Origin: Betaproteobacteria bacterium
GTDB taxonomy: Bacteria; Pseudomonadota; Gammaproteobacteria; Burkholderiales; SG8-41
Assembly (NCBI GenBank): GCA_025363575.1
Contig: JANYDM010000185.1
Location: 1 to 7,467 of the forward strand
Reading direction: 5' to 3'
Length of the DNA: 7,467 nt
Shown here: positions 1 to 7,467 of the stretch, piece by piece
Layout: each line of letters opens with the position of its first letter
Numbering within the stretch: position 1 is the first letter of the stretch
The notes under the pieces: model-generated
The model's database searches: none
What the model was told of the DNA's origin: nothing
The model's input: the letters and a program-made list of their open reading frames with translations, nothing else
Made by a program: the position numbers and the translations under genes

Positions 1-859
1 GCCACACCAGCTCGCCGGTCTTCGGCCGGATCGCAACGACGCTGGCGGAATAAAGACTGTCCTTGCCGCGATACCGTGTATTCCACGGGCCGGCGTTGCC
101 GGTGCCCCAATACGTGAGATCGAGTTCCGGGTCGTACGAGCCCGTGATCCAGGTGGTGGCACCGCCGTTTTTGTAGACCTGGCTTTCCTGCGGCCACGTC
201 TCGAAGCCCGGCTCGCCCGGCCCCGGTATGGTGTAGCGGCGCCACAACTGCTTGCCGGATTCCGGGTCCCAGCCGTCGAGAAAGCCGCGCACGCCGAATT
301 CCGCGCCCGACATGCCGGTGATCAGCACACCGTTGGCGATCAGCGGCGCAACGATCGACGAGTAACCTTCTTTCCACTCCGCAAATTTAGTCTTCCACAA
401 TTGCTTGCCGGTTTTCATGTCGAGCGCGACGACATGCGCGTCGAGCGTGACGCGATAGAGCTTGCCGTTGTAGATCGCCGAGCCTTTGTTGGATATCCCG
501 CAGCACACCACGCGCGGCGTCTCCGGATCGTAGTCGACCGGCGTGCGCCAGATCTGCCTGCCGGTCGCAACGTCGATCGCGAACGTCCACTTGACGTTGG
601 TCACGTACATCACGCCGTCGTACACCATGGGCTGTGCCTGCTCGCCGAGATCGTTGGCGAGGCTCGTGCTCCACACCGGCACCAGGCGCTTGATGTTCGA
701 TGTATTGATCTGCTTGAGCGGGCTGTAGCGCTTCAAATCGTAGCCCATGCCGTAAGTGGTGACGTTTTCGGTGTTCCTGCCGTCGGTCAGCAGCTCCTGC
801 GCAGTTTGCGCATGTGCAACCGTGCAGCAGCACAATAGCAGCGGCAATAGTGTTCTCAT
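1..859 (-). CDS. PQQ-dependent methanol/ethanol-type dehydrogenase, N-terminal 286 residues (cut by left edge)
   Basis: Periplasmic quinoprotein that oxidises alcohols, with PQQ plus a bound metal, and passes electrons to a cytochrome c. Reading starts at ATG 859-857, preceded by an AAGGGGGAA ribosome site, and stays open to position 1. Residues 1-17 form a signal peptide ending AHA. Visible family landmarks: Glu73; the vicinal cysteine pair Cys119-Cys120 (VVCCG), which forms the disulfide ring over PQQ; SGAEFGVRG at 184-192, with Glu187 at the metal-ligand position; Thr235/Trp237 that sandwich PQQ; and Asn255 in YWGTGN, the second metal ligand. W-motif blade repeats such as KTGKQLW and ESGKQLW support a beta-propeller. 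The catalytic Asp, and the extra Asp that marks lanthanide (XoxF/ExaF-like) enzymes, would lie about 40 residues after Asn255, outside the window. Calcium versus lanthanide type and substrate are therefore undecided. Full-length relatives have about 570-620 residues. Confidence 0.93.
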   Translation of the reverse strand, partial: MRTLLPLLLCCCTVAHAQTAQELLTDGRNTENVTTYGMGYDLKRYSPLKQINTSNIKRLVPVWSTSLANDLGEQAQPMVYDGVMYVTNVKWTFAIDVATGRQIWRTPVDYDPETPRVVCCGISNKGSAIYNGKLYRVTLDAHVVALDMKTGKQLWKTKFAEWKEGYSSIVAPLIANGVLITGMSGAEFGVRGFLDGWDPESGKQLWRRYTIPGPGEPGFETWPQESQVYKNGGATTWITGSYDPELDLTYWGTGNAGPWNTRYRGKDSLYSASVVAIRPKTGELVW

Positions 860-919
860 TTGTGTATTCCCCCTTGAATGGAATCGCTCACCTGCAGCGA
901 CGTTCTTATTCTCGAACAT

Positions 920-948
920 ATTCTGCGCTCATTTACCGTCTCCGCCAA
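920..948 (-). promoter_or_regulatory. Candidate sigma70-type promoter for the PQQ dehydrogenase
   Basis: On the minus strand, TTGGCG (948-943) and CAGAAT (925-920) are spaced by exactly 17 nt and lie about 60 nt before the dehydrogenase start. Each hexamer matches consensus at 4 of 6 positions, so this is only a candidate. A direct repeat TATTCT (907-912 and 919-924, 12-nt period) overlaps and follows the -10 and could be an activator or repressor contact. Confidence 0.3.
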
Positions 949-962
949 ACGCGCCCTCGTCC

Positions 963-980
963 TACGCGCGCGCGTACGCA
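963..980. repeat. Alternating pyrimidine-purine tract with a 14-bp perfect palindrome
   Basis: TACGCGCGCGCGTACGCA is 18 nt of strict pyrimidine-purine alternation. Its first 14 nt (963-976) form a perfect palindrome. Such tracts can adopt Z-DNA or cruciform structure under negative supercoiling. It lies between the divergently transcribed dehydrogenase and csbD genes, so a role in that control region is possible but unproven. Confidence 0.4.
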
Positions 981-1083
981 ACCGTACAGATGGTCGCGCC
1001 CCGCCGCCTTAGGATGATTTCGCAACGCGGTGTGCGTCGCGCCGGCTTTCGGCGCAAGGCGGTCGACACCGTTATTTTGTTCT

Positions 1084-1099
1084 GCGCCAGGCGTGGCGC
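1084..1099 (+). promoter_or_regulatory. Small hairpin just upstream of the csbD ribosome site
   Basis: GCGCCA (1084-1089) and TGGCGC (1094-1099) form a 6-bp stem with a GGCG loop, ending 7 nt before the AGGAGG ribosome site of the csbD-like gene. It may structure the leader RNA. No alternative pairing that would make it a switch was recognised. Confidence 0.25.
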
Positions 1100-1120
1100 G
1101 CATAACAGGAGGTATTGACT

Positions 1121-1303
1121 ATGAATAAAGACCAAGTGAAGGGCACGGCGAAAGACATCGCCGGTAAAGTGCAGGAGAAAGTGGGCAAAGTGACGGGCAG
1201 CACGAGCCAGCAAGTCAAGGGTCTGGCGAAGCAGGTCACCGGCAAGATGCAGAAGGGCGCCGGAGACGTCGAAGAAACAGTCAAGAAATCCAATACACAC
1301 TAA
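1121..1303 (+). CDS. CsbD-family stress-response protein
   Basis: A 60-residue hydrophilic protein rich in Lys, Gly, Val and Gln, with the CsbD pattern MNKDQVKGTAKDIAGKVQEK followed by a second similar KVTGS...VKGLAKQVTGKMQKGAGD repeat. The family is small, mostly helical and general-stress-associated, and its biochemical role is not known. ATG 1121 is chosen because a perfect AGGAGG (1107-1112) lies 8 nt before it. The upstream in-frame TTG at 1115 would be only 2 nt from that site. The usual length for the family is about 60-70 residues, so the gene looks intact. It is transcribed divergently from the dehydrogenase and convergently with the Bug gene at 1422-2405, so it is probably monocistronic. 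Confidence 0.9.
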   Translation: MNKDQVKGTAKDIAGKVQEKVGKVTGSTSQQVKGLAKQVTGKMQKGAGDVEETVKKSNTH

Positions 1304-1312
1304 CGTGCAGGC

Positions 1313-1335
1313 GCGCGCCGCCGGCGGCGGCGCGC
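1313..1335 (+). terminator. GC-rich hairpin after csbD, possible terminator
   Basis: GCGCGCCGC (1313-1321) pairs perfectly with GCGGCGCGC (1327-1335) across a 5-nt loop, starting 10 nt after the csbD stop. No T-run follows, so it is either a weak intrinsic terminator or a transcript-stabilising hairpin. Confidence 0.45.
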
Positions 1336-1391
1336 ATCTGCGCTCTTGCCGACGGTATCCGGCGAACTCGCGCCGCGCGGCATTGGACTAA

Positions 1392-1420
1392 CGGACGTCG
1401 AGAGCGCTAATTCACGTCCG
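1392..1420 (-). terminator. Inverted repeat after the minus-strand Bug gene
   Basis: CGGACGT (1392-1398) and ACGTCCG (1414-1420) form 7-bp arms around a 15-nt loop that itself contains AGCGCT. It begins 1 nt beyond the stop of the Bug gene that ends at 1422, in the intergenic gap where csbD and this gene converge. There is no clear T-run on either side. Confidence 0.3.
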
Positions 1421-1421
1421 C

Positions 1422-2405
1422 TCACTCGCTGCGGATGCCGGCCTCCCTGACCAGTTTTCCCATGCGCGCAACTTCCGCTTTCACCGCCGCGCCCAGCTCT
1501 TCCGGCGTGCACCCCGCCGCTTCCATGCCGGCGTTAAAAAATTTCTCTTTAACGTCAGCGCGATTGAGATAGCGTACGATTTCCGCGTTTAGCCTGCCGA
1601 CGATGGCGCGCGGCGTCCGCGCGGGCGCAAACAAGCCGTAGATCGAAGTAGCCTCGTAACCCGGGAGCGTTGCAGACACGCTCGGCAAACCGGCAAATAG
1701 CGGGGTCGGCGCAGCGCTGGTCACCGCCAGCGCTTTCACGCGGCCGGCCTTGAGGTAGGGGGTCACAGCACCCGCCGACGGGAACATCAGCTGCAATTCG
1801 CCCGCGAGCAGCGCAGTGAGCGCGGGGCTCGCGCCTTTGTAGTTGATGCGCACGATGTCGATGTGCGCCATGCTTTTGAACAGCTCCCCCGCCAGATGGT
1901 TGGACGAGCCGGCGCCTGCGGAGCCGTAGTTGAGCTCGCGCGGTTTCGCTCGCGCCAGTGCTATGAGCTCGGCGACCGAACTTACCGGCAGCGTAGGCAT
2001 CACCACCAGCACGTTTACCGTTCTGGCCACCGCGCTGATAGGCGCGAAGTCGCGTTCCGCATCATACGGTGTGCGCTGTATCAGCGGCCCTATCCATAGC
2101 GCGCCGTTGTAGAACAGCAGCGTGTAACCATCGGGCGGCGCTTTGGCCACGATATCCTCCGGTATCACCCCGCTCGGACGGTTCTCGACCACGATCTGCT
2201 GGCGCAAAGCGGCTGTCAGCCCCTGCGCGAGCATGCGCGCCGGAACATCGTTGCCGCCGCCCACTTCCGACGTGACGATGCGCACGGGTTTGCGCGGATA
2301 GTCGTCCCCCCGTGCTGCGCCGGACATGGCCGCTGCCAACAACAGCGTCGACACGCAGAGAAGCAACGCAAACTCGTGCAATATTTTCTTACTCGGGAAA
2401 TCCAT
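1422..2405 (-). CDS. Bug/TctC-family periplasmic solute-binding protein
   Basis: A 327-residue extracytoplasmic receptor of the tripartite tricarboxylate transporter (TctC/Bug) family, which bind carboxylates or related small organic molecules in the periplasm. Residues 1 to about 33 form a signal peptide (lysines at 6-7, then an L/A-rich core). The mature part shows the family signatures: PRKPVRIV, GGGNDVPARM at 49-58 (ligand-loop region), VENRPSG, APPDGYTLLF, PYDAERDFAPIS, LNYGSAGAGSSNHLAGELF, INYKGASPALTALLAGELQ and GRVKALAVTSA. Length is typical (about 320-330). Start ATG 2405 gives a full signal peptide, but no strong ribosome site is seen. Stop is TGA, which shows TGA is an ordinary stop in this genome. 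It is divergent from a second Bug gene. No TctA/TctB permease gene is present, as is common for orphan Bug genes. The ligand cannot be read from sequence. Confidence 0.93.
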   Translation of the reverse strand: MDFPSKKILHEFALLLCVSTLLLAAAMSGAARGDDYPRKPVRIVTSEVGGGNDVPARMLAQGLTAALRQQIVVENRPSGVIPEDIVAKAPPDGYTLLFYNGALWIGPLIQRTPYDAERDFAPISAVARTVNVLVVMPTLPVSSVAELIALARAKPRELNYGSAGAGSSNHLAGELFKSMAHIDIVRINYKGASPALTALLAGELQLMFPSAGAVTPYLKAGRVKALAVTSAAPTPLFAGLPSVSATLPGYEATSIYGLFAPARTPRAIVGRLNAEIVRYLNRADVKEKFFNAGMEAAGCTPEELGAAVKAEVARMGKLVREAGIRSE

Positions 2406-2528
2406 GGCGAAAGTTTACTATGCGCCGGCGCAACTTGACGGCGCCCGCGCCCGCGCGGAAACTTGCGCGATAATTCAATCCGGCGCGGCGTGACTCGCAG
2501 ACCCGCCACCACTCGAGAGTAAACACCG
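2406..2528. promoter_or_regulatory. Divergent intergenic control region between two Bug genes
   Basis: These 123 nt must hold the promoters for both divergent Bug genes unless transcription enters from farther away. A TTGACG (2435-2440) on the plus strand resembles a -35, but no good -10 lies at 16-18 nt. GATAAT (2469-2474) resembles a -10 but has no matching -35. GAGAG (2515-2519) is the likely ribosome site of the rightward gene. No convincing operator was found. Confidence 0.4.
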
Positions 2529-3488
2529 TTGTTCTTCCTGCACCTGTTGTGGTCGTGCATTGCCTTTCTCGCGCCCGCTGCGCATGCCCAGGCCTATCCC
2601 GCAAAGCCGCTGCGCATGATCGTCGGCTTCGCGCCGGGCGGTGGCACGGATGTGACCGCGCGCGTGGTGGCGCAGCCGCTGGCGGAGCGGCTGGGCCAGC
2701 GTGTGGTCGTCGACAACCGGCCCGGCGCCGATGGCGTACTGGGCACCGACCTCGCTGCCAAATCGCCGCCCGACGGCTACACGATACTCATGGTGAATTC
2801 GGGCCATACCGTCAATCCCGGCGTGTTCAAAAAACTGCCTTACGACACGCTGCGCGATTTCGCTCCTGTTTCACTGGTCGCCATGATCGCGAACCTGCTC
2901 GTGGTGCACCCTTCGCTGCCGGCGAAATCGCTGGCGGAATTCGTGCGCCTCGCCAGGGCCCGCCCGGGCATGATCAATTACGCGTCGGGCGGTTATGGTT
3001 CAAGCGGACACCTGGCGGTCGAGCTCTTCAGGAAATACGCGCGGATCGAAATGACGCACGTGCCGTATAAAAGCGGCGGCCTCGTCGCGACCGCCCTGCT
3101 GGCGGGTGAAGTCGCCGTATCGTTCAACACAATACCGTCGCTGATTACCTACGTAAGAGCCGGCCGCCTGCGCACGCTCGGCGTTTCGACCCCGCAGCGC
3201 TCGCTGAGCCTGCCGGATGTCCCGACTATCGCCGAGCAGGGATATCCGGGCTTTTCAGCCAGCGGACTAGCGGGACTGCTGGCGCCCGCCGCTACGCCGC
3301 ACGAAGCCATCGACCGACTGCACTCTGAAATCGCCTTCCTCGTCAAGCAACCTGCACTAATCGAGCGCTTCGTCACTCTCGGCCTCGAGCCCGCCGGCAA
3401 CACACCGGCGGAGTTCGACAGGTTTATCCGCGGCGACATCGACAAATGGACGCAGCTCACACGCGAGCTGAAAATCAATCAGCAGTAA
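2529..3488 (+). CDS. Bug/TctC-family periplasmic solute-binding protein, first gene of the selenoprotein operon
   Basis: A 319-residue TctC/Bug receptor expected to bind a small organic anion in the periplasm. Signal peptide residues 1-20 end in AHA before QAYPAKPLRMIVG. Mature motifs: FAPGGGTDVTARV (34-46), DNRPGADG, SPPDGYTILMVNS, LPYDTLRDFAPVS, INYASGGYGSSGHLAVELF, VPYKSGGLVATALLAGEVAVSF, GRLRTLGVST and LPDVPTIAEQGYPGF. The start is TTG 2529. An in-frame TAA at 2520-2522 blocks anything further upstream, later starts would destroy the signal peptide, and GAGAG lies 9 nt before the TTG. The signal peptide is odd in having no Lys or Arg before its hydrophobic core. Its TAA overlaps the AAGGAG ribosome site of the following selenoprotein gene, so the two are almost certainly cotranscribed and probably functionally linked. 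Confidence 0.93.
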   Translation: MFFLHLLWSCIAFLAPAAHAQAYPAKPLRMIVGFAPGGGTDVTARVVAQPLAERLGQRVVVDNRPGADGVLGTDLAAKSPPDGYTILMVNSGHTVNPGVFKKLPYDTLRDFAPVSLVAMIANLLVVHPSLPAKSLAEFVRLARARPGMINYASGGYGSSGHLAVELFRKYARIEMTHVPYKSGGLVATALLAGEVAVSFNTIPSLITYVRAGRLRTLGVSTPQRSLSLPDVPTIAEQGYPGFSASGLAGLLAPAATPHEAIDRLHSEIAFLVKQPALIERFVTLGLEPAGNTPAEFDRFIRGDIDKWTQLTRELKINQQ

Positions 3489-3497
3489 GGAGCATGC

Positions 3498-5219
3498 ATG
3501 GAAAAACTCGCAGTAGTCAGCCCTCTCGGGCTCGAGATCGTGAAATCGAGCGCTAGCGCACCGCGCCTGGATACGCTCGCCGGCAAGACGATCGGAGAAG
3601 TCTGGAACGGCGTGTTCAAAGGCAACGCGACCTTCCCGCTCCTGCGCCGGGCGTTGCAGGAAAAATACCCGGACCTGAAAATCATCCCCTACACTGAATT
3701 TCCGCATGCGCCGCACAGCGACAATCCCGCGCGCCAGAAGGAACTAATCGACGAAGTCATCGCCGTCGCAAAACGCGAGCACTGCGACGCGCTGATCACC
3801 GGCAACGGCGCCTGAGGCAACTGCGCTCCGGCCGCGGCGCGGCCGGCTACTGCGGCAGAGAAGGCGGGCCTGCCGGCGGTCGTCATAACGACGTCCGGCT
3901 TTTCGGTGCTCGCGCGCTTCACGGGCAAAGCAGGCGGCATCGATGACCTGCACATCGCCGAATATCCGGGCCCGCTTGGCATTCATGAAGCGCCGGAGAT
4001 CGAAAAGAACATTACCGGCGTGCTCGCCGATCGCATCGTTGCGGGACTCACATCGAAAGCAGACGGCGCCGCAGCAAAAGGCGCGATATCGCGCGGTCCC
4101 CGCGCGATCGTCTTTAGCGGCACGGCGGAAGAGGTCAACCGCTATTTCCTGGCGCAGCAATGGAGCGACGGCCTGCCGGTCGTGGCGCCTACGGTCGAAC
4201 GTGTCGAGCGCTTTCTCCGCTACACTGATAATTCGCCCGACGCGGAAATCGCGATACTCCCGTCTGCCAATCTGCGCGCCACGCCATGGAACATCGCAGT
4301 CAACGGTGTGATGGCGGGTTTGAGCCCGCAGCACATGCCGCTATTGATTGCTGCGGTCGAAGCGCTGGCGGACCCCGAATGTCGGCTGGCAAGCATCGGC
4401 AGTTCATCCGGGATCTTCCCGTACGTGCTCGTCAACGGGCCGCTCGCTTCTGAACTCGGTTTTGAGCATGGCGCACAACTCGTTTCGTGCGGAGCGAATC
4501 CCGCGTTTGGCCGCGCCATCGGGCTCATCGTCAAAAATATCGCGGGCTTTCGTCCCGGCGCGAGTTACATGGGCACGTTCGGCTACCCGCTGGGTTTCGC
4601 GCTCGCCGAAAACGAAGCGGAGTCGCCGTGGGAGCCGTTCCACGCCGGCCGCGGCTTCGACCGCACAGCGAGCACGGTGACCATAGGCGTGACCAACAAC
4701 TGGGGACCGGCGCCCGCCGCCTACAGCGCAGAAGGACAAAACGGCGCGCAAAGCGCGCTCGAACTGATCGCGAAGGAAATCAAGAGCTCGACGCGGCTCT
4801 TCAATTTTCCAGCGCGCGGCGCCGATGCCGAGCGCGTGATGATCACCATTCTGATGTCGCCATCGATCGCGAAATCGCTCGCTGCAGCCGGCTATTCGAA
4901 GCAAGACATCAAGCAGCACCTGTTCGAACACACGCGCATGTCGCTGCGCGAATTCGACTGGGTGCTCAAGTACACGACGATCTCCGGCCAATCCGCGCGG
5001 GAGCGTGCCGCAGAGGGCGTGTTCCCGCCCGAATTCGGCGGCGACCCCGGCGACAGAGTGAGGATGCTGTCGAGTCCGGATATCCTGCATATCATCGTGT
5101 GCGGCGATCCGCATCGCAATCGCGTGATGGTGCTCGAAGGCGGTCACACATATCCGGTCACGAAGAAGATTGCGTTGCCGGCGGACTGGCAGACGTTGCT
5201 GCCGCGATCCGCGTCCTAG
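3498..5219 (+). CDS. Predicted selenoprotein: UGSC-type domain (UGNC motif) fused to a C-terminal domain of unknown function, read through TGA 3813-3815
   Basis: One 573-residue frame interrupted only by TGA at codon 106, proposed as selenocysteine. ATG 3498 follows AAGGAG (3487-3492) by 5 nt. Residues 1 to about 190 resemble the UGSC family of (seleno)proteins: LDTLAGKTIGEVWNG (24-38), a helix ending REHCDALITGNGA, the motif U106-G-N-C109, then EKAGLPAVVITTSGFSVLAR (from residue 121) and HIAEYPGPLGI. Residues about 200-573 form a second domain with TAEEVNRYFLAQQW, WSDGLPVVAPT (222-232), NIAVNGVMAGLSP, ILVNGPL-like YVLVNGPL, and AENEAESPWEPFH (370-382). I recall this arrangement near UGSC genes but cannot name a reaction. 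No signal peptide or membrane segment: cytoplasmic. The vicinal U-x-x-C suggests redox or thiol chemistry (inference). A GTG restart at 3906 has no ribosome site and lies inside the first domain. The alternative is a nonsense mutation in a former Cys codon. Confidence 0.85.
3813..3815 (+). other. Proposed selenocysteine codon (UGA) in a U-G-N-C motif
   Basis: TGA is followed in frame by GGC AAC TGC, giving U-G-N-C, with no other stop between 3498 and 5217. The family motif after which UGSC proteins are named has selenocysteine or cysteine at exactly this place. TGA also serves as a genuine stop for the Bug gene at 1422-2405, so this is local recoding rather than a changed genetic code. Confidence 0.82.
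3821..3858 (+). promoter_or_regulatory. Candidate bacterial SECIS stem-loop
   Basis: Upper stem CCGGCCG (3828-3834) pairs perfectly with CGGCCGG (3840-3846) around loop CGGCG (3835-3839); one more C-G pair would leave loop GGC. A lower stem CUGC (3821-3824) with GCAG (3855-3858) encloses it across an internal loop that includes U3827 at the base of the upper stem. The upper stem starts 12 nt after the UGA, close to the ~11-nt spacing known for E. coli fdhF, and the loop contains G residues as SelB targets do. The sequence is generally GC-rich, so part of this pairing could be chance. Confidence 0.55.
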
Positions 5220-5232
5220 CAGCAGCCGCGCG

Positions 5233-5260
5233 CACCGGCGGCCCAGAAATTCCGCCGGTG
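5233..5260 (+). terminator. Hairpin after the selenoprotein gene, probable terminator
   Basis: CACCGGCGG (5233-5241) and CCGCCGGTG (5252-5260) are perfect 9-bp arms around a 10-nt loop, starting 13 nt after the selenoprotein stop. No T-run follows, as is frequent in GC-rich genomes. It would end the Bug-selenoprotein operon and separate it from the topoisomerase gene. Confidence 0.5.
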
Positions 5261-5353
5261 ATGCCCGCGTTGGTGTGCTGACGCACAGAAAACGGCAAAC
5301 CCTGCGGCAATACTTCCGCGCGGTTAAACTGACGCCGGACGCTTGGTTCGCCA

Positions 5354-6382
5354 ATGACAAAATTCGAACAACTTCAGAAATCCGGCATCCGCCGCGCGGG
5401 CACGCCGGCGCGCGGCCTCACATACCGGAATGCGGATAACAGCAAAGCCAATGCCGCCGACCGCGCACGCATCGATGAACTGCGCATTCCCCCCGCGTGG
5501 ACTGACGTATGCATTAATGCAGCGGCGGGCGGCGTCGTGCAGGCAATCGGACGCGATGCCGCGGGCCGCCTGCAGTACATCTACCATGCGAACCACGTCA
5601 AGCGGCGCGAGGCCCGGAAGTTCAGGCGCATAATCAAATTTGCCGAGACGCTGCCGAAAATGCGCACGGCCGTTGCCGCCCACATCAGGCTGCCCGGGCT
5701 CGGCCGCGAGCCGGTGATGGCCGCGATGCTGAGAATACTGTCGACGTGTTTCCTGCGCCCGGGCAGCCAGGTCTACGCGAGCGAGAATGGCAGTTTCGGG
5801 CTGGCGACGCTGCGCCCGCGGCACGTCAAGGTCAGAGGCGACACGGTAGAACTCGACTTTACCGGCAAATCGGGGGTCCATCAGCAATACGAGTTAAAGG
5901 ACCGCCATGTCGCGCGCATCGTCAGGAACCTGCTGCTGCAACCGTCGCGCGAAGTCTTCAAGTACCGCAATGGCGACAACGAATTCGTCAACGTCACGCG
6001 CCATCACATCAACGACTACATACGTGAAGTCATGGGCGCCCGGTTCAGCGCCAAGGATTTCCGCACATGGGCCGGCACGCTGGTCTGCGCCTCAGCGCTG
6101 GCGCGCACCGGCACCGAAGCCCGCGAGAAAAAAACCGCGCGCAAGCGCAAGGTGGTCTCGGCAATCAGGGAGACTGCCGGCGTGCTCGGCAATACACCCG
6201 CGGTCTGCCGCAGCGCTTACATCTGTCCCGAAATCATCGAGGGCTTCGAGCAAGGCAGGATAATCGACAGCTACTTCGCTTCGCCCGGCCATTTGCTCGC
6301 TTATCGCGGGCAGAAACTGCACGCCGCCGAAAAATCGCTGCTCGCATTCATGAAACGCGGCGCGAACGGCGCCAGGGCCTAA
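5354..6382 (+). CDS. DNA topoisomerase IB (poxvirus/bacterial type)
   Basis: A 342-residue type IB topoisomerase, which relaxes supercoils through a 3'-phosphotyrosyl intermediate without ATP. An N-terminal DNA-binding domain spans about residues 20-100 (RIPPAWTDVCIN, YIYHANHVKRREARKF). The catalytic domain follows. Active-site positions are visible: Arg135 in FLRPGS, ENGSFGLATLRPRHV (144-158), Lys172 in TGKSG, Arg237 in DFRTWAGT, and nucleophile Tyr289 in CRSAYICPE. Asn280 in LGNTPAVCR sits where vaccinia has His; this is common in bacterial members. Length is normal (about 330-380). ATG 5354 gives a standard N-terminus, though no strong ribosome site precedes it. It lies 134 nt beyond the selenoprotein stop, after a hairpin, so is likely transcribed separately. 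Its TAA overlaps the TAG of the opposing DUF2188-like gene by 4 nt. Confidence 0.95.
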   Translation: MTKFEQLQKSGIRRAGTPARGLTYRNADNSKANAADRARIDELRIPPAWTDVCINAAAGGVVQAIGRDAAGRLQYIYHANHVKRREARKFRRIIKFAETLPKMRTAVAAHIRLPGLGREPVMAAMLRILSTCFLRPGSQVYASENGSFGLATLRPRHVKVRGDTVELDFTGKSGVHQQYELKDRHVARIVRNLLLQPSREVFKYRNGDNEFVNVTRHHINDYIREVMGARFSAKDFRTWAGTLVCASALARTGTEAREKKTARKRKVVSAIRETAGVLGNTPAVCRSAYICPEIIEGFEQGRIIDSYFASPGHLLAYRGQKLHAAEKSLLAFMKRGANGARA

Positions 6383-6597
6383 CGAATCTCCGGGAATACC
6401 CGTTCTTCGTCGAACACGCCGCTCTTGGTGCGCAATACGACGATGCCACCCATCTGGCCAAGCGATTTTCGCAGGATCCCGGCGCGGCTGCCTTCTTCTT
6501 TGGTCTTAAAGGTCCGCAGCACCTTCATCGTGTCGTCATGCTTGAGTACCCATTGCGCCTTGCTCTCATCGAAACGCAGGGTGAATTTCCTCTTCAA
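6379..6597 (-). CDS. DUF2188-like small protein
   Basis: A 72-residue basic, soluble protein whose pattern fits DUF2188: an amino-terminal strand with a Trp (AQWVLKHDD, Trp16), an FKTKEEGSRAGILRKSLG helix (30-47), then a strand pair GGIVVLRTKSGVFDEERVF ending EERVFPE, like the ER-T/V-Y/F end of the family. Function of the family is unknown. The start is TTG 6597, decided by AGAGGAG (6610-6604) placed 6 nt before it; no ATG serves. It converges with topoisomerase IB, their stop codons overlapping at 6379-6382, and lies downstream of the ArsR-type gene on the same strand with a 129-nt gap. It could be cotranscribed with that regulator or have its own promoter. Confidence 0.78.
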   Translation of the reverse strand: MKRKFTLRFDESKAQWVLKHDDTMKVLRTFKTKEEGSRAGILRKSLGQMGGIVVLRTKSGVFDEERVFPEIR

Positions 6598-6726
6598 GTG
6601 CAGCTCCTCTTCCGTGGATTAACTTGTCGTGGGAACCGTGCGCCATGGCGACAACAGCACGATCCGGGCCACTAGCGTAGCACCAGCGCGCGGCCAGAGG
6701 CAAATCTATCGGGGCCGGCCGCGGGG

Positions 6727-7086
6727 CTAGAGGGCGTTCACCTTCGCGCACGCATGGTCCCGCTGCTGCGCGATGACTTCGAGCGAAAAACGGGCTTCAT
6801 CAAGCCGCGCGGGCTCGAACGCCCAGCGGCGCTCACGGCCGATCTTGACATCGCGCACCAGGCCGGCCTCCGCGAGCACCTGCAGATGCTTGGTGACCGC
6901 CTGTCGGGTAATGGGCGTGCCGGCCGTCAGCTGCGCGATCGATAACGTGCCGCCGGCGCATAGCACGACGATCAGGCGCAGACGCGTCTCGTCGCCCAGC
7001 GCCGAGAATACCGGAGCGTAGGCGCGCGGCGACAGATTTCTCAACGCCGCCGGCGGCGTTGGCGACGGGCTAGGGCGTGGCAACAC
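6727..7086 (-). CDS. ArsR-family winged-helix transcriptional regulator
   Basis: A 119-residue DNA-binding regulator. The ArsR core is clear: APVFSALGDETRLRLIVVLC (24-43), LSIAQLTAGTPITRQ (48-62), recognition helix TRQAVTKHLQVLAEAGLV (60-77), and wing VKIGRERRWAFEP (80-92). The metal-binding ELCVCDL box of arsenic or cadmium sensors is absent. The sequence is closer to the metal-independent ArsR regulators often paired with an SRPBCC/AHSA1 gene, but no such partner is in the window. The start is uncertain: GTG 7086 gives a Pro-rich leader (PRPSPSPTPP) unusual for the family, TTG 7083 is equivalent, and TTG 7044 would give the more typical MRNLSPRAYAPVF. None has a strong ribosome site. The target is unknown. 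Confidence 0.88.
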   Translation of the reverse strand: MLPRPSPSPTPPAALRNLSPRAYAPVFSALGDETRLRLIVVLCAGGTLSIAQLTAGTPITRQAVTKHLQVLAEAGLVRDVKIGRERRWAFEPARLDEARFSLEVIAQQRDHACAKVNAL

Positions 7087-7219
7087 GGCGCGCGGTGTTT
7101 TCCGGTTGTCGTCCCGACCAACCCCATTCCGACGTCATGCCAGCGACCTCGCCCACCACCGTCATGATGTTGTGCGCGTAGTGCGGAAGAATGTTCCAAT
7201 GCTTTAGCGGTTTTGACAC
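7070..7219 (-). CDS. Possible 49-residue ORF overlapping the ArsR start (doubtful)
   Basis: From GTG 7219 (or GTG 7225) the minus strand reads VSKPLKHWNILPHYAHNIM..., then VVGEVAGMTSEWGWSGRQ, to TAG at 7070. The open frame extends back to about 7345 without an ATG (…AFSYNNFVVTLTSSDPSCRYRNC). The residue mix is less Ala/Arg-biased than usual shadow translations in this window, suggesting a gene remnant or short leader ORF. No ribosome site is seen and I recognise no homolog. Its stop lies inside the first codons of the ArsR gene if that starts at GTG 7086, which would allow translational coupling. Confidence 0.2.
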   Translation of the reverse strand: MSKPLKHWNILPHYAHNIMTVVGEVAGMTSEWGWSGRQPENTARRVATP

Positions 7220-7350
7220 GGGCACAATCGAGGCGACAAGCCGGCAATTACGATAACGACATGACGGATCGGACGATGTAAGCGTGACGACGAAATTGTT
7301 GTAAGAGAAAGCGCTTGCCCGCTGACCTAGTGTTATGAGTCTTTAATTCA

Positions 7351-7380
7351 TTGAACATTTATTGCCTTGCGTTGTCTTAT
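7351..7380 (+). promoter_or_regulatory. Candidate sigma70-type promoter for the right-edge gene
   Basis: TTGAAC (7351-7356) and TCTTAT (7375-7380) are spaced by 18 nt, each matching 4 of 6 consensus positions, in the most AT-rich part of the window. Transcription would start about 15-20 nt before the ribosome site. Confidence 0.3.
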
Positions 7381-7395
7381 GTAGAGTAGACAACG
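7370..7395. promoter_or_regulatory. Inverted repeat CGTTGTCT-N10-AGACAACG, candidate operator or leader hairpin
   Basis: Perfect 8-bp arms (7370-7377 and 7388-7395) with a 10-nt spacer overlap the proposed -10 hexamer and end at the first base of the GGGAGGGG ribosome site. Its placement suits a repressor operator; as RNA it could form a hairpin next to the ribosome site. Confidence 0.45.
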
Positions 7396-7405
7396 GGAGG
7401 GGCAT

Positions 7406-7467
7406 ATGAAACGCGGCCGGCAACTTGCAAAACTGGTAATGAGCGTGACTGAGACCAACCAACTGAC
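7406..7467 (+). CDS. Start of an unrecognised gene (first 20 codons, cut by right edge)
   Basis: ATG 7406 is preceded by a strong GGGAGGGG ribosome site (7395-7402) with 3 nt between. The frame reads MKRGRQLAKLVMSVTETNQL and stays open to the window end. The basic, amphipathic start has no signal peptide character. Too little is visible to name a family. The dedicated upstream region with candidate promoter and palindrome supports that it is a real, regulated gene. Confidence 0.65.
   Translation, partial: MKRGRQLAKLVMSVTETNQL

Follow-up and report, generated by a model that had tools for sequence, protein, structure and literature searches.

A TGA-interrupted gene on a Betaproteobacteria contig very probably encodes a selenoprotein joining a divergent UGSC domain to a partner domain

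A 7,467-nucleotide contig from a Betaproteobacteria bacterium (JANYDM010000185.1 of assembly GCA_025363575.1, positions 1 to 7,467 of the forward strand; here called the window) carries a long reading frame interrupted by a TGA. Does this codon end a short protein, or is it read as selenocysteine (Sec)? We found that the sole internal stop of the frame from 3498 to 5219 is the TGA at 3813-3815 and that the frame closes at a TAG (5217-5219). The front part (3498-3815) amounts to 105 codons plus the TGA and is in frame with the open stretch downstream, and the codons behind the TGA are GGC AAC TGC (G-N-C). A first-pass annotation, made from the sequence alone, had proposed a 573-residue selenoprotein with a U-G-N-C motif; both the single-TGA frame, which gives 573 residues with read-through, and the G-N-C that follows were borne out. 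Judging from sequence comparison, 3498-5219 is very probably one gene, and its fused protein would be made by decoding the TGA as Sec.

We identified relatives of the gene by scanning one genome per species. This yielded 41 loci, of which 37, in 31 genomes, cover codon 106; four loci that end before it (L035, L038, L039, and L040) were dropped from the counts, and loci from one assembly were entered once. Counts out of 38 sequences are these 37 loci plus the window. Codon 106 is TGA in all 37. They come from many Betaproteobacteria metagenome-assembled genomes (MAGs), a Syntrophaceae MAG (L033), and a Pirellulaceae MAG (L034), at 40 to 87% identity, and their motif is U-G-N/T/V-C, compared with U-G-N-C in the window protein. 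Each relative has one internal TGA, except for L008, with a terminal TGA, and L021, which is frameshifted near codon 446 but was kept for the TGA, hairpin, and stop codon counts. The Pfam UGSC domain PF24696 spans the TGA: it scores 87 bits (cut-off, 25) when the codon is read through and 27 bits on the first 105 residues alone, and the downstream open reading frame (ORF) alone gave no PF24696 match. Because a Pfam domain spans the TGA and all 37 covering relatives share it, the interrupted frame is more than chance.

More distant homologs have either TGA or a Cys codon at this position. A protein database search gave 912 matches below E 0.001 among 7,998 scored candidates. Among the best 120 of these 912, 117 do not contain the motif around the TGA; at 423 to 463 residues, they are shorter than the stretch behind the TGA, and the window's own ORF (P0002) is one of them. 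The remaining three span the site and have Cys there, in the sequence CGTC. Thus, the databases mostly store the rear part of this gene alone, as a protein of unknown function. Matches were found in 24 plasmid records, and in the 11 regions that we opened (L058 is unannotated), the column holds Cys in eight, TGA in two (L056 from Acidovorax and L058 from Paracoccus), and Met in one (L083). Among 369 sampled genomes of one class, seven genes have TGA at this column (L062, L063, L064 [the same as L069], L065, L066, L067, and L070), and L061 has Cys; in L068 the TGA stands ahead of G-S-C. Altogether, Cys occupies the Sec column in P0018, P0027, P0032, L054, L055, L057, L059, L061, L080 to L082, and L084, and the further homologs with TGA are L056, L058, L062 to L068, and L070. 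The expectation that homologs carry U or C at column 106 was thus confirmed, with Sec in 37 of 37 relatives, Sec or Cys farther out, and L083 as the sole exception. Apart from L083, the in-frame TGA is conserved as TGA or as a Cys codon, which is what is looked for in bacterial selenoprotein genes.

A bacterial Sec insertion sequence (SECIS) typically has a G at the start of its loop and lies at a set distance behind the TGA. We found a candidate hairpin of this kind, with a loop starting with G just behind the TGA. It begins 12 nucleotides (nt) behind the TGA, has a GGC or GGU loop, and can be formed by the close relatives as well. The stem is complete, with all 8 pairs, in 35 of the 38 sequences, the window included. 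L017 and L037 have 7 pairs each; L034 has 6 in the common register and an alternative 7-bp register in its predicted fold. When we recoded each gene synonymously with its own codon use, 3.7 to 5.7 pairs were expected, and the probability of reaching the observed number ranged from 0.001 to 0.11 among the sequences, with 0.01 for the window. The most informative change links two codons. The 12 sequences in which codon 113 reads TCG (Ser) and not GCG (Ala) all encode Arg115 by AGG; the other 26 use CGG (24), CGT (1), or CGC (1), and elsewhere in these genes AGG makes up 74 of 1,239 Arg codons.

Pair counting over 36 distinct rows gave 98.6% paired cells. Fourteen cells were changed on both sides of the stem, compared with 3.1 in shuffles, and none of 500 shuffles reached 14; since the sequences are related, these 14 cells may represent few events. 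Both-side changes occur in 3 of the 8 pairs, a number reached by 10 of 500 shuffles. Sliding the partner by 1 to 3 columns reduced pairing to 23 to 55%. We also measured codon constraint in 33 sequences and 533 codon windows, without L005, L008, L021, L023, and L031; the same five loci were left out of alignment A2, which took 32 of the 37. Synonymous conservation was maximal at codons 110 to 116, which overlie the hairpin and are the best of the 533, with 0.83 identical codons compared with 0.35 expected (excess, 0.47). Away from the hairpin site, the excess had a mean of 0.067, a standard deviation of 0.047, and a maximum of 0.22. Among distant homologs, we inspected five loci with TGA and four with Cys. 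L056, L058, and L068 differ in sequence yet have, almost equally far behind the TGA, an 8-bp stem whose triloop starts with G; of these five TGA loci, L066 and L067 did not show this form. The stem is kept in the Cys forms L054 and L055 but not in L057 and L059. Because two Cys forms keep it, the distant similarity may in part be due to protein sequence.

We searched for the Sec machinery in the 31 genomes that carry relatives and in 14 control genomes. A tRNA-Sec scoring at least 68.7 bits is present in 28 of the 31 carriers, and the next score is 54 bits. SelB exceeded the cut-off in 26 of 31 carriers and 2 of 14 controls; in addition, G004 has SelB in pieces at contig ends, and G027 has a possible SelB piece. 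SelA was found in 29 of 31 carriers and 1 of 14 controls. SelD was found in all 31 carriers and exceeded the cut-off in 2 of 14 controls, and the best SelD copy itself has an in-frame TGA in every carrier except G031 (30 of 31). The genome of the closest relative, the 87%-identical L001, has tRNA-Sec, SelB, and SelA on one contig (G001:C132). In the class sample, 21 of 369 genomes have a tRNA-Sec over the cut-off: 5 of 6 carriers and 16 of 363 noncarriers. The center genome of that sample had been chosen as a carrier; without it, the counts are 4 of 5 and 16 of 363 (Fisher P = 3e-5). Two of the class sample carriers (G122 and G345) matched mainly on the C-terminal domain. In G363, selA (PF03841, 493 bits) directly follows the TGA-bearing relative L067. 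We note the arrangement at L067:1267-4261, a TGA-bearing UGSC fusion gene and then selA, with tRNA-Sec about 5.5 kb off on the same contig. SelB bound to the hairpin at 3828-3846 would deliver Sec-tRNA to the UGA at 3813-3815 and so allow the 573-residue protein to be made.

The conserved TGA, the distant Cys homologs, the covarying hairpin, and the Sec machinery in most carrier genomes together strongly support the first-pass proposal that this TGA is decoded as Sec. Several observations weigh against it. The machinery is known from the genomes of relatives, not from the window's own genome. At E 0.001, the tRNA-Sec search is unspecific, with matches in all 14 controls, 5 of them over the cut-off, so only high scores count; weaker matches, such as that of G026 at 49 bits, were discounted, though 29 of the 31 carriers exceed the search cut-off. 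Among the 31 carriers, SelA was not found in G002 and G012, and no convincing tRNA-Sec or SelB was found in the MAGs G012, G015, and G026. In these three, SelD bears the TGA, G015 and G026 also have SelA, and the gaps fit incomplete MAGs, as expected. The class sample carrier G166 has no tRNA-Sec. By itself, the window's hairpin does not exceed its shuffles or synonymous recodings in stability, Rfam gave no match at the TGA, and the case for the hairpin comes from comparing sequences that are themselves related. Finally, in L083 (Vibrio europaeus plasmid pVEu, 3644-5329), Met and Ser replace Sec/Cys and Cys when aligned by eye; it is possibly a nonredox member of the family. The fused UGSC/C-domain protein of L083 is encoded near aconitase X and DUF126 genes.

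If the TGA were instead a real stop, the gene would be a pseudogene or the contig would contain a sequencing error. Gene callers do stop at this codon, as the 117 motif-less matches, no longer than the rear stretch, illustrate, and one relative (L021) is frameshifted at another place. However, the same TGA recurs at 37 of 37 loci, and because many independent assemblies share it, a sequencing error is excluded. The hairpin covaries, and both halves of the gene are conserved. Compared with L001, there are 26 synonymous and 11 amino acid codon changes before the TGA and 116 and 61 after it; compared with L009, these numbers are 29 and 45 before and 150 and 151 after. We regard a pseudogene or an error as extremely unlikely. 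A second alternative is that one mRNA gives two proteins, a 105-residue product ending at the TGA and a 437-residue product from a second start. This would resemble other organisms, where UGSC and the C-domain are separate genes, but there the split falls between the domains, whereas in the window it would sever the UGSC domain at the active site. An ordinary stop codon would also tend to drift to TAA or TAG. In the window, AAGGAG sits 5 nt upstream of the ATG at 3498, and the GTG at 3906 has no Shine-Dalgarno-like sequence ahead of it, as the first-pass annotation had said of that GTG. Among the relatives, such a sequence precedes 27 of 35 upstream starts; behind the TGA, only 1 of 38 first in-frame starts has one. 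Two separate products are thus highly improbable.

Reassignment of TGA to another amino acid, or random read-through, would account for the open frame and for nothing more. In 20 of the 38 genes, frameshifted L021 included, the next stop after codon 106 is itself a TGA; therefore, the genetic code is not reassigned. With the exceptions of L021 and L008 given above, there is one internal TGA per gene, most homologs without the TGA have Cys rather than Trp or Gly, and tRNA-Sec and SelB are present in most carrier genomes. These observations leave this explanation with hardly any chance, and we retain Sec decoding of a single gene.

What kind of selenoprotein would this be? The first-pass annotation placed it in the UGSC family, an assignment that stood with corrections of detail. 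Like UGSC proteins, its N-terminal 185 residues exceed the cut-off of PF24696, which matches 36 of 36 members of alignment A2, and Sec or Cys stands in the same column followed by G-x-C. Unlike them, it does not reach the cut-off of the NCBIfam UGSC equivalog NF041046 (53.2 compared with 125 bits), and it has a fused second domain; the literal U-G-S-C motif is absent from the window protein and its 37 relatives, the third residue being N, T, or V rather than S. In the predicted model, the helix that follows the strand-loop ITGNGA begins with Sec106, and Cys109 is one turn further. Two thirds of the protein, about 370 residues, form the second domain, which the first-pass annotation had not described. 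By sequence comparison, the protein is a divergent UGSC domain fused to a partner domain without a Pfam family.

Of 7,999 candidates scored against the partner domain, at least 7,474 are relatives, and the best 120 of these, where named, are called only "hypothetical" or "uncharacterized." The domain is fused in soil and freshwater Burkholderiales and a separate gene in haloarchaea and others. In the 11 plasmid regions, the UGSC and C-domain genes are adjacent in eight and fused in three. The stand-alone proteins (hypotheticals of haloarchaea, Variovorax, and Roseovarius; unannotated in Paracoccus) are about 27 to 36% identical to the window protein over the C-domain, and their genes sit beside a Cys- or Sec-type UGSC gene, separate there but fused in the window. 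In a broad comparison, the window protein and its closest relatives have Leu at codon 275 (4320-4322), where the remaining 10 sequences have Cys. Near the first gene, ORFs at L007:11104-12491 and L025:19145-20530 resemble pieces of second family copies.

A possible clue to function is a likeness to GrdB, the selenoprotein B of the GrdB/PrdB group (TIGR01918 and PF07355). The selenol of GrdB is held to attack the substrate. We compared the profile of the N-terminal domain with the GrdB of G002 (L072, which matches TIGR01918 with 557 bits), and 103 columns aligned with the Sec columns in register (hhalign E 6e-5 in a single comparison). The segment behind Sec is similar, with a GIP-type turn at its end in most relatives. 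In a ranking of 477 proteins, this GrdB came 36th; ranks 1 to 33 are pieces of the family gene, and ranks 34 and 35 look, by the columns matched, like pieces of second family copies. Ranks 37 to 39 are UPNC-motif selenoproteins of the same genomes, and a fourth is at rank 43, behind three unrelated ORFs. TIGR01917 touched one of four UGSC proteins tested (E 0.009). A GRDB search in 10 of the 31 carrier genomes gave a match in 8, full length only in G002. We also observed in G010, G003, G001, and G014 another protein with an in-frame TGA and the motif V-U-P-N-C-T-C-A-V (L074, L075, L076, and L077, respectively), matched weakly by PF07355 (GRDB); it is apparently a second GrdB/PrdB-like selenoprotein of carrier genomes.

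Other observations count against this kinship or against a GrdB-like mechanism. The similarity is weak (hhalign probability, 65%), the total architecture differs, and no GrdB/PrdB model reached the window protein P0001 (TIGR01918, TIGR01917, and TIGR04483 in NCBIfam at E ≤1; PF07355 in Pfam at E ≤10). The Pfam glycine reductase B model matched 11 of 36 members weakly (best E, 0.017), but the irrelevant RepB_primase_C model matched equally often (11 of 36; best E, 0.02), and we therefore gave the glycine reductase matches no weight. A TrxR-like (thioredoxin reductase-like) ORF was found at only 1 of the 38 loci with the fused Sec gene, about 7 kb away (L041).

Table 1. Features of the gene and its surroundings, in window coordinates
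Feature	Coordinates	Strand	Remarks
TctC/Bug solute-binding protein (PF03401, 237 bits)	2529..3488	+	Ends about 10 nt ahead of the selenoprotein gene
Shine-Dalgarno-like AAGGAG	3487..3492	+	Overlaps the stop of the upstream gene; read from the sequence
Complete selenoprotein gene, ATG to TAG	3498..5219	+	573 residues with Sec at 106; homologs align end to end
UGSC domain PF24696, residues 6-185	3513..4052	+	Pfam; Rossmann-like in the predicted model
In-frame TGA, putative Sec codon 106	3813..3815	+	TGA in 37/37 covering relatives; some distant homologs have Cys
TGC, Cys109, second residue of the UxxC motif, putative resolving Cys	3822..3824	+	Invariant in alignment A2
Candidate bacterial SECIS hairpin CCGGCCGC-GGC-GCGGCCGG, 8 bp, triloop 3836-3838	3828..3846	+	Comparison of relatives
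C-terminal domain, residues 201-573, no Pfam family	4098..5216	+	Stand-alone gene beside UGSC in other organisms

The surroundings of the gene are listed in Table 1. Because the AAGGAG overlaps the end of the TctC/Bug gene and lies just before the ATG, the two genes are probably cotranscribed. A member of the BLAST cluster of the window's TctC protein (the Pfam check covers the window's two members) lies within the fetched stretch of up to 10 kb at 35 of 38 loci, and on the same strand within 300 nt at 14 of 38. We considered operon conservation as proof of function and set it aside, given this count of 14 of 38 and a mixed neighborhood. An MmgE/PrpD enzyme cluster (two members checked) occurs near the fused genes at 9 of 38 loci. 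Other neighbors are Bug proteins, LysR regulators, and single amidohydrolase, lyase, racemase, and dihydrodipicolinate synthase-family genes; the 20 neighbors checked with Pfam also include SelA, a chromate transporter, a STAND NTPase, a luciferase-like protein, an integrase, a solute-binding protein, a peptidase, and three proteins without a family. TrxR-like flavoprotein genes lie near the UGSC pair in 4 of the 11 plasmid regions, identified by Pfam Pyr_redox_2 in L055, L057, and L059 and by annotation in L084.

The GrdB profile similarity and the acid-related and TrxR-like neighbors lead us to propose a selenol enzyme for a small imported acid. The Bug protein encoded ahead of the gene would probably collect a small organic acid, as its position suggests. 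Sec106 would then most likely, going by the remote GrdB similarity, be the nucleophile that attacks this acid, held by or with the C-terminal domain, and the resulting selenium adduct or selenenyl-sulfide with Cys109 may be reduced by a thioredoxin/flavoprotein system. By this analogy, a GrdB-like selenol enzyme that acts on an imported organic acid and is re-reduced by a dithiol or flavoprotein system is a tentative suggestion, short of probable. The same selenoprotein could instead be a thiol-disulfide oxidoreductase or a peroxide-type redox protein rather than a substrate-cleaving enzyme. The UxxC motif, the TrxR-like neighbors in the four plasmid regions, and a Trx-like fold supposed in the Global Ocean Sampling (GOS) paper on a marine metagenome (PMC2398784) favor this, and the likeness to GrdB and the acid-related neighbors point to substrate cleavage. 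We consider a redox protein a possibility to be taken seriously, though not the probable outcome.

Around the gene in the window, we found a topoisomerase IB (5354-6382, plus strand) and an ArsR-type regulator (6727-7086, minus strand) by Pfam, with no evident link to the selenoprotein. An open-ended ORF on the minus strand (2-919) is presumably related, from its repeats, to pyrroloquinoline quinone-dependent dehydrogenases, and a short plus-strand ORF (1121-1303) is one that we take to resemble CsbD-type stress proteins. Among the relatives, eight MAG records (L003, L005, L007, L013, L016, L021, L022, and L025) are titled Bordetella parapertussis or Chitinophaga pinensis; they bear sample-type isolate names, and in our judgment these titles look like mislabels.

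Some of this was already known. The parts of the GOS report consulted (PMC2398784) count 255 UGSC-containing selenoproteins, commonest in nonmarine samples, and describe, as of 2008, one that is fused to a domain named Unknown_1; like the window protein, it joins a UGSC selenoprotein to a conserved uncharacterized domain. In those parts, the account of the fusion does not mention the gene's hairpin, a partner gene, a transporter link, or GrdB kinship. Reviews, in the portions consulted, list the family and describe the functions of such proteins as largely uncharacterized (PMC13188914 and PMC9312934; a table in PMC5029168). Among the papers listed in literature searches, no title or opening of an abstract links UGSC proteins with Bug transporters, with this partner domain, or with GrdB. 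With the UGSC family and a UGSC fusion on record, what is of interest here is the undescribed partner domain and the kinship to GrdB, which is likely but unproven.

Many database proteins of 423 to 463 residues would thus be the rear parts of selenoproteins cut at the active site. Naming the UGSC/C-domain pair, its recoding signal, and its likely GrdB kinship makes the function testable in cultured organisms that have Cys versions. A wider idea, which we think somewhat unlikely, is that UGSC proteins are a third, mostly nonclostridial branch of GrdB/PrdB-type selenol enzymes, in which the Sec domain and a dedicated substrate domain cleave or reduce a carboxylate taken up via Bug or TRAP binding proteins. 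If true, Stickland-type selenium chemistry would thereby reach into aerobic scavengers.
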